From NCBI GenBank assembly GCA_005885405.1, contig VAYN01000007.1:27794-91793 (forward strand): a stretch of 64,000 nucleotides of DNA, in the 5' to 3' direction. A program made the translations under genes and the position numbers. This DNA comes from Actinomycetota bacterium. Lineage in GTDB: Bacteria > Actinomycetota > Thermoleophilia > Solirubrobacterales > 70-9. Each line of letters opens with the position of its first letter. The stretch's first letter is position 1. Under the pieces are notes generated by a model. It saw nothing but the letters and a program-made list of their open reading frames with translations, was not told the origin of the DNA and searched no databases. Below are positions 3,617 to 55,241 of the stretch, one piece after another.

Positions 3617-3657
3617 CGTGGTTCCTTTGTCCGCCATAAGAGGACAAAAGAACCACG
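3617..3657 (+). repeat. Palindrome P1, second copy at 38354-38394
   Basis: Imperfect inverted repeat: arms 3617-3632 and 3642-3657 (16 bp, one mismatch) around a 9-nt loop, starting 3 nt after the stop of the preceding gene. Extended over 45 nt, it matches 38354-38398 at 38 of 45 positions without gaps, so this is a dispersed repeat and not just a local terminator. It covers the most upstream GTG (3618) of the next open frame. Confidence 0.8.
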
Positions 3658-3692
3658 GAACGACGTCGGTCCTGCCGCCGCCAAGCCAGCCG

Positions 3693-6617
3693 GTGGCGGA
3701 CCGGGCGCCGGACGAGCTCGCGGACGGCGTCGCCGCGCCGCTGCGGCGCGACCTCGAGCAGCTGCTCGGCGCCGATCGAGTCCTGCACCGGGTCAGCGAC
3801 CTCGTCTCCTACGCCTCCGACGCCAGCCCCTACCGGCGCTTTCCGCGGGCGGTGGTCGAGGCGCGCGATGCCGAGGACGTCGCCAAGGTCTTGCGCTTCG
3901 GACGGGAGCGCGACATCCCCGTCACCTTCCGCGCCGGCGGCACCAGCCTCAACGGGCAGGGCCAGAGCGACGGCATCCTCGTTGACGTCCGCAAGCACTG
4001 GGGCGGGGTCAGGGTCGAGGACGACGGCATCCGCGCCCGCGTGAAGCCGGGGACGATCCTCGGCCACGCCAACCGCGTCCTCGCCCCGCACGGGCGCAAA
4101 CTCGGCCCCGACCCGGCCAGCACCGACGTCTGCACGGTCGGCGGCGTCGTCGCCAACAACTCGGGCGGCATGCGCTGCGGCGTCACCAAGGACTCCTACT
4201 CGACGGTGCGGGAGATGACCTTTGTGCTGCCGTCGGGGACGGTCATCGACACCGGCGCGCCAGACGCGGCCGAGCGCTTCGCCGCCGCCGAGCCGGAGCT
4301 GGTCGCCGGCCTGGAGGCGATCCGCGACGAGATCCGCGCCGACGCCGAGCTCGCTGAGCGGATCCGCCGCAAGTTCGCGATCAAGAACACGACCGGCTAC
4401 CGCCTCTGCGCCTTCCTCGACGCCGAAGAGCCGCTGGAGATCTTCCGCCGCCTCCTCGTCGGCTCCGAGGGAACGCTCGCCTTCATCGCCGAGGTCGTCT
4501 TCGAGACGGTCCCGGTCTCGCCGGTGACGACGACCGCCTGGGTCCACTTCCCCGGAATCGACGAGGCCGTCGCCCCCGTCGGCGATCTCGTCGCCTCGGG
4601 GGCGACCGCGGTCGAGCTGATGGTGGCGCCGGCGCTGATCACCGCCGCCTGGAACATGGTCGGGGCACCGCAGGAGTGGAAAGAGTTGCCGCCCGAGTCG
4701 GCGGTGCTGCTGGTCGAGTTCGGCGGCGCCGACGAGGGCGACCTCGCGGCGCAGGTCCTGCGCGCCGAAGCGATCCTCGGCTCCCACGAGACGATCCGCC
4801 CCCTCGAGTTCACCCGCGAGCCGGAGGCGATCGAGCTCGCCTGGCGGGTGCGCGAGGGCCTGCACGGCCTGATCGGGCGGGTGCGGCCGGAGGGGACGGC
4901 GCTGATCGTCGAGGACGTCTGCGTGCCGCCGGCGCGGATCGCCGAAGGGGCCAAGGACCTGCAGGCGCTGCTCGGCGAGCACGGCTTCCTGCCCGGCGTC
5001 GCCGGCCACGCCAGCGCCGGGAACCTCCACTTCATGCTGACCCCGGACTTCGCCAAGCAGGAGGACCTCGAGCGCTACGAGGCATTCATGGGCGGCCTCG
5101 TCGAGCTGATCGTCGGCAAGTACGACGGCTCGCTCAAGGCCGAGCACGGGACCGGGGTGAACATGGCCCCTTATGTGGAGCGCGAGTGGGGGGAGAAGGC
5201 GACCGAGCTGATGTGGCGGCTGAAGCAGCTCGCCGACCCCGACGGCGTCCTCTCGCCCGACGTCATCCTCAGCCGCGACCCCGGCGTCCACTTGCGCGAC
5301 CTGAAAACGACGCCGGCGATCGAGGACTGGGGCGGGGCGACGACCTGCGTCGAGTGCGGCTTCTGCGAGCCGGTCTGCCCGAGCCGCAACCTGACGACGA
5401 CCCCGCGCCAGCGGATCGTCCTGCGGCGGGAGATGGCCCGCCAGCCCGAGGGCTCGCCGGTGCAGCGGGCGCTGCTGGCCGAGTACGACTACGACGCGCT
5501 GCAGACGTGCGCGACGGACGGGTCCTGCCAGATCGCCTGTCCGTTGGGGATTGATACGGGGCGGATGGTTAAGGAGCTGCGGGTGGCGCAGCATGGGGAG
5601 CGAGCGGAAAAGGCGGCACTTGCGGCGGCGAAGCGTTGGGGTGCCGTCGAGAAGATCTCTCGGCTGGCCCTCAGGGTCGGGGGGCCTTTGGCTCGCAGGA
5701 CGAAGCGGGGGAAGGGACTGCCCGGGGCGGCGCGTGATGGGGTGCCGGCGGCCGGGGGAGGAGAGGGTGACCCTCTCCGGACAACAGCGGGGAGGGTCCG
5801 GAGAGGGTCACCCTCTCCTCCAACCGGGGCGGCTGCGGTGTACGTGCCGAGCTGTACGAATCGGATTTTCGGTCCGTCATCCACCGAGTCCGCGAAAACG
5901 GTCCCTGGAGAGCCGTTTTCGCGGACTCGATCTGTGGTTGACGATCTTGTGATGGTTTCGGCGCGGGCTGGGATGCCGGTGGTGGTTCCGGAGGATGTGG
6001 CGGGGAGTTGCTGTGGATTGCCTTGGAGCTCGAAAGGGTTTGCCCAGGCTCATGCGCACAAGGCGAATGAGATGGTGGAGCGGTTGTGGGAGTGGAGTGG
6101 GGAGGGGGCGCTGCCGGTTGTGATCGATGCGGCGTCCTGCACGGGGGCGATTGCTGATCCGGCTGAGGGTGTGCTCTCGGAGGAGAACTCGGAGCGGCTC
6201 TCGAAGATCGAGATCGTCGATTCGGTTGCGTGGGCTTTGCGGTTGCTGCCGAACCTCGAGATCGACTCCAAGGTCGCTTCCGCGACGGTTCACCCGACCT
6301 GCGCGACCCGGCGCCTCGCCTTGGCGCACCCGCTCCGCATCCTCGCCAATGCCCTAGCCGACGACGTCTACATCGCCCCCTCCGCCACCTGCTGCGCCTT
6401 CGCCGGCGACCGCGGCATCACCCACCCCGAGCTCACCGCCTCCGCCACGCGCCCCCAGGCGGAAGAGCTAAGCGGCCGCCATTTCGACGCCTACCTCTCC
6501 ACCAATCGCACCTGCGAGATAGCGATGGAGCGGGCAACCAACCAGCCCTACGAGTCGGTGGTGTCCCTCCTAGAGCGCCTCACCCGAACTTCCCCAACCT
6601 CTACCCAGCCGAGATAG
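3693..6617 (+). CDS. FAD-linked oxidase / Fe-S oxidoreductase fusion (D-lactate or glycolate dehydrogenase type)
   Basis: Single-chain GlcD-GlcF-like or DldII-like enzyme, expected to oxidise a D-2-hydroxy acid at the membrane face. From the start: FAD-binding PCMH domain (TFRAGGTSLNGQ, VGGVVANNSGG), FAD-oxidase C domain (HASAGNLHF), two ferredoxin-type clusters (CVECGFCEPVCP, and CATDGSCQIACP), then CCG-type cysteine domains (PSCTNR, GSCCGLPWSSKG, PTCATRR, TCCAFAGDRG). The frame is open from GTG 3618, but that codon lies in the dispersed palindrome P1, so I prefer GTG 3693 (974 residues). Two perfect palindromes (5757-5821, 5885-5929) are read through in frame between the Fe-S and CCG parts, adding roughly 22 and 15 residues, and a 21-bp palindrome covers the stop codon. 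From about 5550 to 6240 codon use shifts from C-ending to T/G-ending codons. Confidence 0.82.
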   Translation: MADRAPDELADGVAAPLRRDLEQLLGADRVLHRVSDLVSYASDASPYRRFPRAVVEARDAEDVAKVLRFGRERDIPVTFRAGGTSLNGQGQSDGILVDVRKHWGGVRVEDDGIRARVKPGTILGHANRVLAPHGRKLGPDPASTDVCTVGGVVANNSGGMRCGVTKDSYSTVREMTFVLPSGTVIDTGAPDAAERFAAAEPELVAGLEAIRDEIRADAELAERIRRKFAIKNTTGYRLCAFLDAEEPLEIFRRLLVGSEGTLAFIAEVVFETVPVSPVTTTAWVHFPGIDEAVAPVGDLVASGATAVELMVAPALITAAWNMVGAPQEWKELPPESAVLLVEFGGADEGDLAAQVLRAEAILGSHETIRPLEFTREPEAIELAWRVREGLHGLIGRVRPEGTALIVEDVCVPPARIAEGAKDLQALLGEHGFLPGVAGHASAGNLHFMLTPDFAKQEDLERYEAFMGGLVELIVGKYDGSLKAEHGTGVNMAPYVEREWGEKATELMWRLKQLADPDGVLSPDVILSRDPGVHLRDLKTTPAIEDWGGATTCVECGFCEPVCPSRNLTTTPRQRIVLRREMARQPEGSPVQRALLAEYDYDALQTCATDGSCQIACPLGIDTGRMVKELRVAQHGERAEKAALAAAKRWGAVEKISRLALRVGGPLARRTKRGKGLPGAARDGVPAAGGGEGDPLRTTAGRVRRGSPSPPTGAAAVYVPSCTNRIFGPSSTESAKTVPGEPFSRTRSVVDDLVMVSARAGMPVVVPEDVAGSCCGLPWSSKGFAQAHAHKANEMVERLWEWSGEGALPVVIDAASCTGAIADPAEGVLSEENSERLSKIEIVDSVAWALRLLPNLEIDSKVASATVHPTCATRRLALAHPLRILANALADDVYIAPSATCCAFAGDRGITHPELTASATRPQAEELSGRHFDAYLSTNRTCEIAMERATNQPYESVVSLLERLTRTSPTSTQPR
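5757..5821 (+). repeat. Perfect 25-bp palindrome P3 inside a coding region
   Basis: Arms 5757-5781 and 5797-5821 are perfectly complementary over 25 bp around a 15-nt loop. Each arm is itself a palindrome (GGAGAGGGT-G-ACCCTCTCC), so a four-way nested structure is possible. It is translated in frame as a Gly/Arg/Pro/Ser-rich segment of the dehydrogenase. Confidence 0.9.
5885..5929 (+). repeat. Perfect 17-bp palindrome P4 inside a coding region
   Basis: Arms 5885-5901 and 5913-5929, perfect over 17 bp with an 11-nt loop. It is translated in frame between the conserved PSCTNRIFG segment and the VSARAG segment of the dehydrogenase, where related proteins by memory have only a short connection. 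Confidence 0.85.
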
Positions 6618-6635
6618 AGGTTGGGGAAGTTCGGG
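6583..6635 (+). terminator. Perfect 21-bp palindrome P5 across a stop codon, between convergent genes
   Basis: Arms 6583-6603 and 6615-6635, perfect over 21 bp with an 11-nt loop. The TAG stop of the dehydrogenase (6615-6617) forms the first bases of the right arm and the opposing SDR gene ends at 6637. There is no T-tract, so it may act as a bidirectional terminator or 3' stabiliser. Confidence 0.75.
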
Positions 6636-37085: not shown

Positions 37086-38317
37086 GATGCTGCTACCTCC
37101 TCGTTGGTTGACTTCCCGCCGACAGCGGCCGCGTGCTCCGGCCGCCACCCGACTAGGACCTCGTTTCCCTGCGCTGGCAGCGCGCCCGAAGACGCACTCT
37201 CCACGTTCTGTCTTACGAGCTGGAGCTTCTCCCCAGTGTCCAGCTGAATCGTGAAGCGGGTAACCATGCCGGCGTAGGCGACGTCGACGATGCGGCCGGT
37301 CTCCGTGTGGAGACCGTCGCTCGGAGCGCCCGGCTCAAGTAGATCGATCTTCTCCGGGCGGATCGTCATCCGCTGCCCGTCGCGCTCGATCAGGTTGGAG
37401 ACGCCGACGAAGCCGGCGACGAACTCGTTCGCCGGGTGCTCGTAGAGCTCCAGCGGCGGGCTCACCTGCTCGATCCGGCCGCCGTTAAAGACGGCGATGC
37501 GGTCGCTCATCGTCAGCGCCTCGTCCTGGTCGTGGGTGACGTATACGAAAGTGATCCCGACCTCGCCCTGAATCGTCTTCAGCTCCGTCTGCATCTCCTC
37601 GCGCAGCTTCAGGTCGAGGGCGCCGAGCGGCTCGTCGAGCAGCAGCACCTTGGGCCGGTTGACGATCGCCCGCGCCAAGGCGACGCGCTGGCGCTGGCCG
37701 CCGGAGAGCTCGCCGGGCTTGCGGTCCGCGTAGCCCGGCAGGCGCACCATCTCCAGCGCATCCTCACCGCGCTTGATGCGCTCGGCCTTGCCGACGCCGG
37801 CGACCTTCATCCCGTAGGCGACGTTCTCGCCGACGCTCATGTGGGGGAAGAGGGCGTAGTCCTGGAACACCGTGTTGACGGCGCGGTCGTACGGCGGCAC
37901 CCCGCTGACATCCTCGCCGGCCAGCTCGATCGTCCCCTCGGTCGGGTCCTCGAAGCCGGCGATCATCCGCAGCGTCGTCGTCTTCCCCGAGCCCGAGGGC
38001 CCCAGCATCGTGAAGAACTCTCCCTTCGCGATCTCCAAATCGATCCCCGCAACCGCGGCCACCTCCCCGTAGTACTTCGTGAGGCCGGTGAGACGGATGT
38101 CAGGAGTGCTCGCGTCTATACGTGGGACGTTATCCGGGGAGGTGCGGATTGCAAGAACAAAGTGGACGGCGGGGATTAGCCGGGGTGGAGTACGGCTGTT
38201 TGGGGGCGGGAGGCGGTGGGGGTCCCTGGGAGCACCTCCGCCGAGTCGGGGTGGGGTCAGGCTGCCGCCCCGGGCCGCAACGCTCGGTCTCCGTGCCAAG
38301 TACCCAGGGACCCCCAC
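37082..38317 (-). CDS. potA: Polyamine-type ABC transporter ATPase (start codon unclear)
   Basis: Walker A GPSGSGKTT, Q-loop FQDYALFP, signature LSGGQRQRVALARA and Walker B VLLLDEP identify an ABC ATPase; the C-terminal TOBE region (IRPEKIDL) fits PotA/PotG. The recognisable protein starts about 38100 with DIRLTGLTKYYG. No in-frame ATG, GTG or TTG occurs between there and 38299 (TTG) or 38317 (GTG), and both of those lie in palindrome D1. I therefore give the full open frame; the true start may be a non-standard codon (for example ATA at 38117-38119) or lie in the palindrome, adding about 70 Pro/Arg-rich residues. The cognate binding protein and permeases follow. Confidence 0.82.
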   Translation of the reverse strand: MGVPGYLARRPSVAARGGSLTPPRLGGGAPRDPHRLPPPNSRTPPRLIPAVHFVLAIRTSPDNVPRIDASTPDIRLTGLTKYYGEVAAVAGIDLEIAKGEFFTMLGPSGSGKTTTLRMIAGFEDPTEGTIELAGEDVSGVPPYDRAVNTVFQDYALFPHMSVGENVAYGMKVAGVGKAERIKRGEDALEMVRLPGYADRKPGELSGGQRQRVALARAIVNRPKVLLLDEPLGALDLKLREEMQTELKTIQGEVGITFVYVTHDQDEALTMSDRIAVFNGGRIEQVSPPLELYEHPANEFVAGFVGVSNLIERDGQRMTIRPEKIDLLEPGAPSDGLHTETGRIVDVAYAGMVTRFTIQLDTGEKLQLVRQNVESASSGALPAQGNEVLVGWRPEHAAAVGGKSTNEEVAAS

Positions 38318-38328
38318 CGCCTCCCGCC
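38205..38328 (+). repeat. Long palindrome D1 (26-bp perfect arms, 72-nt loop)
   Basis: Arms 38205-38230 and 38303-38328 are perfectly complementary. Each arm has a GGGGGTCCC core. D1 lies in the non-conserved stretch between the recognisable part of potA and grpB. From 38125 to 38424 there is no recognisable coding sequence other than this element and P2. Confidence 0.9.
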
Positions 38329-38353
38329 AGTCAGCCGCGGTGGGGTTCAGTTG

Positions 38354-38394
38354 CGTGGTTCCTTTGTCCGGCTATAGAGGACTAAGGAGCCACG
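38354..38394 (+). repeat. Palindrome P2, copy of P1 (3617-3657)
   Basis: Arms 38354-38369 and 38379-38394 (16 bp, two mismatches) around a 9-nt loop. Over 45 nt it matches P1 at 38 positions. It lies 30 nt before the grpB start. Confidence 0.8.
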
Positions 38395-38424
38395 GAACTC
38401 GATTTCAGTGAGAGGGTGCGGCTC

Positions 38425-38934: not shown

Positions 38935-39057
38935 AGGAGCGGGCGGGGCACCCCCTGAGCGCCACTTAGCACGAGGCGGGCCAGCAACCTTCTAGCGCCA
39001 GCGGCTGCGAACCCACCCGCCAAGCTGCGGCGAGCAGGGGGTGCCCCGCCCGCTCCT
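38935..39057 (+). repeat. Long palindrome D2 (23-bp perfect arms, 77-nt loop)
   Basis: Arms 38935-38957 and 39035-39057 pair perfectly and extend by 4 bp beyond a 2-nt mismatch. Each arm has a GGGGCACCCC core. It fills the gap between the convergent grpB and NlpC/P60 genes and may terminate both. Confidence 0.9.
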
Positions 39058-50239: not shown

Positions 50240-51793
50240 ATGGCTGAGCGCAGGCTCAAGCACTGGGGTTGGGGTTACGAGGACCAGGCGCCGACGGCGA
50301 CGCAGCTGCGCGAGGCGGCGGAAGGGATCCGGGCGCGGTTCGGGTTCGGCGGCGAGGTCGAGAAGCCGGTGCCGCTCGAGGAGGTGGAGCTGCGGGCGTC
50401 GCGGCTGAAGCGGCCGAGTGGGTTGGGGAAGGCTTATCGGGATGTGGTGCGGGGGTTCTATGGGAGGTTCGAGAATCCGCCGGATCTTGTTGCCTTTCCC
50501 CGCGACGAGTCGGAGATCGAGGCGGTGCTGAGTTGGGCCGAGGCAGAGGGGGCGGCGGTGATTCCGTTCGGCGGCGGCACCAGCGTGGTCGGCGGGGTGG
50601 AGCCGCGGGTGGGAGAGCGGCCGGTGGTCTCGCTGGACCTGCGGCGGCTCGACCGGGTGCTGGAGGTGGACCCGGCCTCGCTGGCGGCGCGGATCCAGGC
50701 CGGAGCGACCGGGCCGGGGCTGGAGGACCAGCTGCGCGAGCACGGGCTCACCCTGCGCCACTTCCCGCAGTCCTTCGAGTACGCCACCCTCGGTGGCTGG
50801 ATCGCGACCCGTGCCGGCGGGCACTTCGCGACGCTCGAGACCCACATCGACGACCTCGTCGAGTCGGTGCGTGCGATCACTCCGCGGGGGACGTGGGAGA
50901 GTCGGCGGTTGCCGGGCTCCGGCGCGGGTCCCTCGCCCGACCGGATGCTGGTCGGCTCGGAGGGCATCCTCGGCGTCATCGCCGAGGCCTGGGTGCGGGT
51001 GCGGCCGCGACCGCGGTTCAAGGTTTCGGCCGGCGTCACCTTCAAGGACTTCGACGAGGCTGCGGAGGCGGTTCGAGCGATCGCCCAGTCCGGCCTGCAT
51101 CCCGCCAACTGCCGCCTCCTCGACGCCGCCGAGGCGGAGCTGACCGGCGCCGGCGACGGCAGCGCCAACCTGCTCATCCTCGGCTTCGAGTCCGCCGACC
51201 ATCCAGTCGACCACTGGATGGACCTGGCGCTCGCGCCTGCCCGGGAGCACGGCGGGTCTACGGGCGAGGTCCGCACCTCCGGAGGCGGCGATGATGCGGT
51301 GGGAGCCTGGCGCGGAGCGTTCCTGCTGGCGCCGTATCTGCGCGATACCTTCGTCGCCTGCGGCGTCCTCTCGGAGACCTTCGAGACGGCGATCACCTGG
51401 GACCGGTTCGAGGAGTTCCACGCGACCGTGATGGAGACGACCCGCCGCGCCGTCGCCGCCGCGAGCGGCGTCCCCGCTGACGGGCCGGGTGCGCCCCGTG
51501 TCAGCTGTCGCCTCACCCACGTCTACCCTGACGGCGCCGCTCCCTACTTCACCGTCCTCGCCCCGGCAATCCGCGGCGGCGAGGTCGAGCAGTGGGACGA
51601 GATCAAGGCCGCCGTCTCCGAGGCCCTGATCGACGCCGGCGGCACGATCACCCACCACCACGCCGTCGGCCGCGACCATCGCCCCTGGTATGACCGCCAG
51701 CGCCCGGCCCCGTTCGCCGCCGCCCTCCGCGCCGCCAAGGCCGAGCTCGACCCGGCGGGGATGCTCAACCCCGGCGTCCTCCTCGACCCCTAG
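50240..51793 (+). CDS. FAD-binding oxidoreductase, alkyl-DHAP synthase (AGPS)-like
   Basis: 517 residues. VAO/PCMH flavoprotein: PFGGGTSVVGGVEP (FAD pyrophosphate), FEYATLGGWIATRAGGHF, DRMLVGSEGILGVI, and the AGPS hallmark ITHHHAVGRDHRPW close to the C-terminus. AGPS swaps the acyl group of acyl-DHAP for a fatty alcohol, making an ether lipid. The preceding gene could provide fatty alcohol or aldehyde. The N-terminus (KHWGWGYEDQAP) also matches AGPS. A stretch near 50390-50490 uses GTG/GGG codons unlike the rest. The stop is embedded in a 21-bp palindrome. Confidence 0.78.
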   Translation: MAERRLKHWGWGYEDQAPTATQLREAAEGIRARFGFGGEVEKPVPLEEVELRASRLKRPSGLGKAYRDVVRGFYGRFENPPDLVAFPRDESEIEAVLSWAEAEGAAVIPFGGGTSVVGGVEPRVGERPVVSLDLRRLDRVLEVDPASLAARIQAGATGPGLEDQLREHGLTLRHFPQSFEYATLGGWIATRAGGHFATLETHIDDLVESVRAITPRGTWESRRLPGSGAGPSPDRMLVGSEGILGVIAEAWVRVRPRPRFKVSAGVTFKDFDEAAEAVRAIAQSGLHPANCRLLDAAEAELTGAGDGSANLLILGFESADHPVDHWMDLALAPAREHGGSTGEVRTSGGGDDAVGAWRGAFLLAPYLRDTFVACGVLSETFETAITWDRFEEFHATVMETTRRAVAAASGVPADGPGAPRVSCRLTHVYPDGAAPYFTVLAPAIRGGEVEQWDEIKAAVSEALIDAGGTITHHHAVGRDHRPWYDRQRPAPFAAALRAAKAELDPAGMLNPGVLLDP

Positions 51794-51844
51794 CCGGCGT
51801 TCGTCCTTTCCCCACCTATTCCAGGGAAAGGACGAACGCCGGCT
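51792..51844 (+). terminator. Perfect 21-bp palindrome starting in a stop codon
   Basis: Arms 51792-51812 and 51824-51844 pair perfectly with an 11-nt loop; the left arm begins in the TAG stop (51791-51793) of the flavoprotein. Moderately T-rich sequence (TTCTTATTT) follows. Same size and stop-embedded layout as P5 (6583-6635). Confidence 0.75.
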
Positions 51845-55137: not shown

Positions 55138-55241
55138 GGAGGGCGGGTACCCCCTCTCACAAAGGCTCAAGAAGTCCCGCTGGCACCCGCAAGTCCGACC
55201 AGCTGCGCGACGGGCTTTGGGAGAGGGGGTACCCGCCCTCC
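55138..55241 (-). repeat. Long palindrome D3 (21-bp perfect arms, 62-nt loop)
   Basis: Arms 55138-55158 and 55221-55241 pair perfectly; the inner flanks (CAAAG with CTTTG) extend the stem past one mismatch. Each arm contains the self-complementary core GGGTACCC. It lies 8 nt beyond the citrate synthase stop and before the three-gene unit, so it may terminate gltA transcripts. Confidence 0.9.

Follow-up and report, generated by a model that had tools for sequence, protein, structure and literature searches.

The window analysed here, a 64,000-nucleotide stretch of contig VAYN01000007.1 from the Actinomycetota assembly GCA_005885405.1, contains a gene for an FAD/Fe-S dehydrogenase with which four palindromes, designated P1 to P4, are associated (Table 1). 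Two of them, P2 and P3, probably arose when dispersed hairpin elements of a non-autonomous kind inserted in frame; these elements belong to short palindromic families (~40-70 bp) of one Solirubrobacterales genus and its close relatives. The genome of the window (G000; 2.6 Mb, 30 contigs, 93% complete) was analysed within a set of 12 genomes of that genus, itself included, and in a wider comparison with 61 relatives.

The dehydrogenase comprises the domains FAD_binding_4, FAD-oxidase_C, Fer4_8, and CCG and was matched in 58 of the 61 relatives, mostly by proteins of the same family at near full length. Its start is uncertain and likely lies at GTG 3693 or GTG 3618. An earlier note, made from the sequence alone, had described four palindromes in this gene region. 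They are present far beyond chance: palindromes of such quality were absent from five order-2 Markov versions of the window, and 464 kb of the genome, part of it stretches chosen for family matches, held 24 of them versus none in an order-3 Markov control. P3 and P4 agreed with the description, including the position of P4 over the stop codon, whereas P2, although perfect, has arms of 26 and not 25 bp. P1, described as a dispersed hairpin at the 5' end of the gene, is indeed dispersed, but it lies between two genes, beginning 3 nt past the stop of the upstream one, and is probably not coding, because its frame, if read from 3618, differs from that of the in-gene P1 copies elsewhere. The sequence of G009 at this position is unrelated and lacks P1. 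P4 provides the C-terminal ~10 residues (RTSPTSTQPR) together with the TAG stop codon (6615-6617). The open reading frame (ORF) 3618-6617 stays open across P2 and P3, which thus keep the frame as claimed. In the gene frame, P2 would be translated as GGEGDPLRTTAGRVRRGSPSP and P3 as ESAKTVPGEPFSRTR, the latter in the same frame as the in-gene copies in the MR_MLE and RecJ genes; the peptide stretches spanning the two would be GGEGDPLR.. and ESAKTVPGEPFSR.

Table 1. Positions of the palindromes and related features in the window.
Feature	Position	Strand	Description
Dehydrogenase ORF	3618..6617	+	FAD/Fe-S dehydrogenase, D-2-hydroxyglutarate/glycolate/lactate dehydrogenase type
P1	3617..3657		Imperfect palindrome, 16-nt arms with one mismatch, 9-nt loop; between two genes; CGTGGTTCCTTTGTCC family
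C-poor, G/T-rich third codon positions around P2 and P3	5540..6230	+	G000 and G009; weak in G031
P2	5757..5821		Perfect 26-bp arms (5757-5782/5796-5821), 13-nt loop AACAGCGGGGAGG; probable in-frame insertion
P2 apex	5779..5799	+	GGAC-AACAGCGGGGAGG-GTCC; conserved core of the P2 family; equals G000:C30:33572-33592
P3	5885..5929		Perfect 17-bp arms (5885-5901/5913-5929), 11-nt loop; probable in-frame insertion
P4	6583..6635		Perfect 21-bp arms (6583-6603/6615-6635), 11-nt loop; covers the stop codon
Second P1-family copy	38349..38399		Missing at the orthologous place in G009
Further palindrome	51792..51844		Perfect, 21 bp, 11-nt loop; overlaps the 3' end of predicted gene 50240-51793; design as P4

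Comparison with homologues indicates that P2 and P3 are in-frame insertions. The segment from PLARR to ..RAG has 96 residues in the window versus 57 in the dehydrogenases of G001, G002, G003, G004, G007, and G010, all of the same genus, and these six lack both palindromes. Thus, the alignment of homologues, which had been proposed as a check, supported the insertion reading, most close homologues having a much shorter segment. Orthologues of P2 were found at the same point in G009 and G031, with perfect 26- and 28-bp arms; the P3 orthologue of G009 is likewise at the same point and has compensated arms, and a P4 orthologue is also present in that genome. The G006 dehydrogenase carries an unrelated 20-bp palindrome inside the same linker. 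In the alignments, the inserts sit between conserved motifs, in segments that vary in length.

A search for further copies of the arms showed that P1, P2, and P3 are not unique but belong to repeat families. The G000 genome contains ~11 elements of the P1 family, ~nine of the P3 family, and eight exact copies of the P2 apex plus relatives; across genomes, the P2 family amounts to 44 members. Elements are ~35-76 bp long, and those of the P2 family have a common 13-nt loop with locus-specific arms of 20-30 bp. The distribution is narrow. The P1 arm CGTGGTTCCTTTGTCC was not found in 20 other genomes of relatives that were searched, and another arm, CGCCTGTTCCTTTTCG, is almost confined to G009. 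With at most two mismatches, the P2 apex occurs in G000, G009, G006, G002, G031, G011, and G007 and hardly anywhere else among the 61 relatives. In a set of 84,980 species genomes, its occurrence was limited to Solirubrobacterales metagenome-assembled genomes (MAGs), apart from four matches in Archangium, Lentzea, Sulfotelmatobacter, and Saprospiraceae, which were attributed to chance as their flanks are not palindromic. No match was detected in the viral contigs searched. On this basis, the genome of the window is itself most likely a Solirubrobacterales MAG (Thermoleophilia, Actinomycetota).

The density of long palindromes was determined in a census of ~0.6 Mb of stretches, part of them picked for family matches; the least biased sample was 240 kb of contig C28, and genes were called with a simple codon-score script and no standard annotator. 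The density reached 25 per 100 kb in G005 and 18 in G006, compared with a background of 1-3 in G003, G026, and more distant relatives. The samples G005:C46 and G006:C82 (L241-L250) contained families with a common loop, ACAGCCTGCCAG, but differing arms.

Other genes with similar in-frame inserts, a further search that the earlier note had proposed, were also found. In-frame palindromes of the P1, P2, P3, and further families are present in genes for a Lhr-type DEAD helicase, a HAD hydrolase, a GFO/IDH/MocA oxidoreductase, a phosphodiesterase (PDE), PhzF, an enolase-superfamily enzyme (MR/MLE), a PHP/glycosyltransferase protein, CofE, and RecJ, the last with two inserts. In MR_MLE, G000 and G009 have 16 residues that six others lack; presence or absence among relatives is also clean at the RecJ, CofE, Lhr, and HAD inserts, and the PhzF and PDE inserts vary in presence as well. 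The P1-family copies in three genes use one frame, RGS(F/L)VR..RTKEPR, and those of the P3 family in three genes use ESA(K/R)T..EPFSRTR. A DNA element, selfish or mutation-driven, may thereby be supplying ordinary enzymes with additional peptide. Of the palindromes sampled, 18 of 36 in G000 and 10 of 22 in G009 fall within predicted genes; both shares are below the 85% that the coding density would predict (p ~9e-7 for G000), as would be expected if many in-gene insertions get removed. For G005 and G006 together, this number was 3 of 43. As a separate observation, a gene for a membrane-type protein (L062:9641-11671; G000:C28:69641-71671) carries four in-frame palindromes of different families, two of which are still palindromic in G009. 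The ends of contigs G009:C6 and G009:C19 (L201, L210) fall in the CofE gene near the position of the G000 palindrome, probably because the assembly broke at the hairpin.

The arms of these elements evolve in pairs. At six orthologous sites of G000 and G009, 30 of the 131 arm pairs have changed; 22 of the changes are two-sided and Watson-Crick in both species, two are two-sided and unpaired in one species, and six are one-sided, whereas independent change at the same rate would give ~1.9 compensatory and ~43 one-sided changes. Among the 44 P2 elements, pairing is mostly at least 90% Watson-Crick to about position 23, 83-88% at positions 24-26, and 30-50% from position 28. Most arm positions show several Watson-Crick pair types, with a frequent G.G non-pair at positions 6-7. 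The loop of this family is more conserved than the arms, which diverge between orthologous copies that nevertheless stay palindromic; at three P2-family sites compared between G000 and G009, the loop was unchanged. At an orthologous site in the HAD gene (L010, G000:C18; L192, G009:C9), each genome has its own species-specific version of the P1-family element, which suggests concerted evolution or replacement. An assembly artefact was rejected, given that independent MAGs carry orthologous, sequence-diverged palindromes.

Paired changes would also arise if the palindromes were functional RNA hairpins, namely terminators, attenuators, or mRNA stabilisers, under selection at the transcript level, with the copies inside ORFs being by-products. 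This explanation, which we consider unlikely, agrees with the position of many elements at gene ends or between genes, with P4 over a stop codon, with the location of almost all G005 and G006 palindromes outside genes, and with the high predicted stability of the RNA stems (-59.7 kcal/mol for P2 and -40.4 kcal/mol for P4). However, about half of the elements in G000 and G009 are inside ORFs, in frame where examined. In addition, the in-gene mismatches, read in the mRNA sense, comprise 11 G.T and 11 A.C, with no wobble excess; this lack of a G.U preference favours arms kept matched by copying at the DNA level (template switching) over selection on RNA. No Rfam family reached the gathering score, and the sub-threshold look-alikes were microRNA hairpins only, so a known RNA family was rejected. 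As regards intrinsic terminators, P2 and P3 are internal to the ORF, and none of P1 to P4 is followed by a run of T.

Template switching might also have formed palindromes locally in pre-existing linkers with no mobile insertion at all, since it is able to create perfect stems (PMC8794818). The locus-specific outer arms of the P2 elements and the existence of orthologous sites at which the sister species has non-palindromic sequence of similar length would fit such an origin. Nevertheless, its chances are slim: the P2 apex is conserved across species at ~40 loci, P1 arms specific to a species recur at many loci, and there is a net gain of ~12-40 residues over insert-less homologues.

A third candidate is a set of repetitive extragenic palindromic (REP) elements mobilised by the REP-associated tyrosine transposase (RAYT, a Y1 transposase), as in gamma-proteobacteria. 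REP elements are likewise short, many-copy palindromes, and the elements considered here are mostly intergenic in G005 and G006 and in part intragenic, a situation that has been described for REPs as well (PMC3733652). Nonetheless, no Y1_Tnp match was obtained in the 12 genomes of the genus, of which G000 lacks ~7% of its sequence, while controls were detected; mobilisation by RAYT was rejected on this ground. Moreover, arms here measure 17-30 bp versus 5-13 bp in REPs (PMC3733652), and by inspection the ends of the listed elements have no GTAG tetranucleotide. We therefore regard a REP-like origin as very improbable. Retro-mobilisation was rejected as well, because the reverse transcriptase domain RVT_1 is missing from five element-bearing genomes (G000, G009, G005, G006, and G002). 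Finally, inverted repeats due to chance or codon bias in a GC-rich gene (68% GC) with naturally long linkers are refuted by the Markov controls, the insert-less homologues, and the repeat families.

Insertion of hairpin elements, the reading that we prefer, could proceed as follows. The elements would spread as DNA hairpins by a mechanism other than RAYT or reverse transcriptase, and insertions would survive where the peptide is tolerated, that is, in a variable segment with an open frame. Template switching at the hairpin during replication, which copies one arm onto the other, may keep the arms perfect, rather than selection on RNA structure or peptide. The genus apparently has no standard SbcCD hairpin nuclease, which might make long hairpins tolerable; SbcD was not detected above the cut-off in any of the 12 genomes. 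The design of the P2 family, with a conserved loop and variable arms, points to an undiscovered agent that would recognise the hairpin tip, and gains and losses of sites between G000 and G009 are frequent.

Several observations weigh against the insertion of mobile hairpins or limit its extent. A search of the G000 genome revealed no second copy of P4. At least half of the elements lie between genes or at their ends and could have a terminator-like function there, and we infer translation of the added segments from open frames only. Local palindrome formation instead of insertion is possible at those sites where the sister sequence is non-palindromic. No transposase (Y1_Tnp and RVT_1 only were searched for), target-site duplication, or excision was found. 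In terms of miniature inverted-repeat transposable elements, the whole element is a single inverted repeat, and target duplication was examined at one clean empty site only, where none was evident. Loss of SbcCD as the cause was rejected: SbcD is equally missing from relatives with few palindromes, and its absence would therefore be permissive at most.

The Rickettsia palindromic elements (RPEs), to which the earlier note had likened the inserts, and the Wolbachia palindromic elements are the closest known kind. The resemblance holds for dispersed palindromic families that are inserted in frame into unrelated conserved genes, for insertion places shared by related species, and for a mobility mechanism that is unknown in both cases (PMC2229807, PMC3767692, PMC10969869). 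However, the present elements are not members of this group, because their length, host, and arm evolution differ. RPEs are ~100-150 bp long and occur in alpha-proteobacteria, whereas the elements in Solirubrobacterales are about half that length; the P2 apex pattern had no match in any Rickettsiales genome among the species genomes searched. For RPEs, a loss of repeat identity with time has been reported (PMC6649704), and the arms described here show the opposite, staying matched while diverging. Some intragenic GTAG/CGTC REPs are located in genes for replication and repair, among them recB and uvrA (PMC3733652). The palindromes of the genus are similar in being short, mostly at gene ends, and in some cases within genes of this kind (RecJ and the Lhr-type helicase here), but they differ in stem length and in the lack of RAYT, and a REP is one conserved unit, unlike the P2 family with its conserved loop and locus-specific arms.

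Perfect inverted repeats that are apparently maintained in protein-coding genes, with template switching as the proposed mechanism, are also known from the mitochondria of Nematomorpha (PMC6649704). In these, both arms encode conserved protein, whereas here the arms belong to dispersed families and would encode an added peptide that is absent from relatives. Double changes that bring back a perfect stem in a single event are expected both from template-switch maintenance of RNA stems and from quasipalindrome correction (PMC8794818, PMC7202029). These studies treat RNA genes and reporter quasipalindromes, and not dispersed elements within bacterial ORFs. The way in which arms change in pairs at orthologous sites resembles a naturally kept record of bacterial template-switch mutation. 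In the open-access literature searched, no report of Solirubrobacterales palindromes was found. So far, in-frame palindromic insertions have mostly been regarded as a trait of Rickettsiales, plus scattered intragenic REPs elsewhere. An independent actinobacterial case, in which the same codon position holds a copy in some species, none in others, and a diverged one in still others, makes the entry of such elements into proteins directly testable.

The codon usage around the inserts is shifted as well. The earlier note had assigned a change to the last third of the dehydrogenase gene; the change is real, but it is limited to about residues 640-870 and reverts by residue 900. Between about residues 650 and 850 of G000, the frequency of C at third positions, otherwise mostly 0.35-0.7, drops to 0.12-0.18; the drop is similar in G009 and weaker in G031, and relatives without the inserts do not show it. 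At fourfold sites with C inferred as ancestral, 29 of 33 have changed in the shifted stretch of G000 (23 C>G and 6 C>T), compared with 28 of 167 elsewhere in the gene. More generally, coding windows near palindromes in G000 and G009 are C-poor, most strongly near P2- and P3-family elements. The paired test at the gene level was modest (17 of 23 genes lower near palindromes, Wilcoxon p = 0.018), and comparison with relatives gave a mixed result, strong for PHP_GT, MR_MLE, and RecJ and absent for HAD, CofE, and PhzF. The codon shift around some inserts is lineage-specific.

A more far-reaching scenario, which we put forward tentatively and consider doubtful as a whole, would join these features. 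The hairpin class would be defined by its conserved single-stranded loop, and the arms would be continually recopied from each other, giving species-specific arms even at orthologous sites. Genus-wide spread and in-frame entry into core enzymes would be accompanied by a local third-position shift from C to G/T, for example through strand-specific mutation or through selection against Rho loading at coding hairpins. If this is true, the arms of such hairpin elements are not inherited as a fixed sequence.

Apart from the palindromes listed in Table 1, the window has long inverted repeats at 38205-38328, 38935-39057, and 55138-55241, with arms of 26-29 nt. Their loops of 50-72 nt place them outside the main census.

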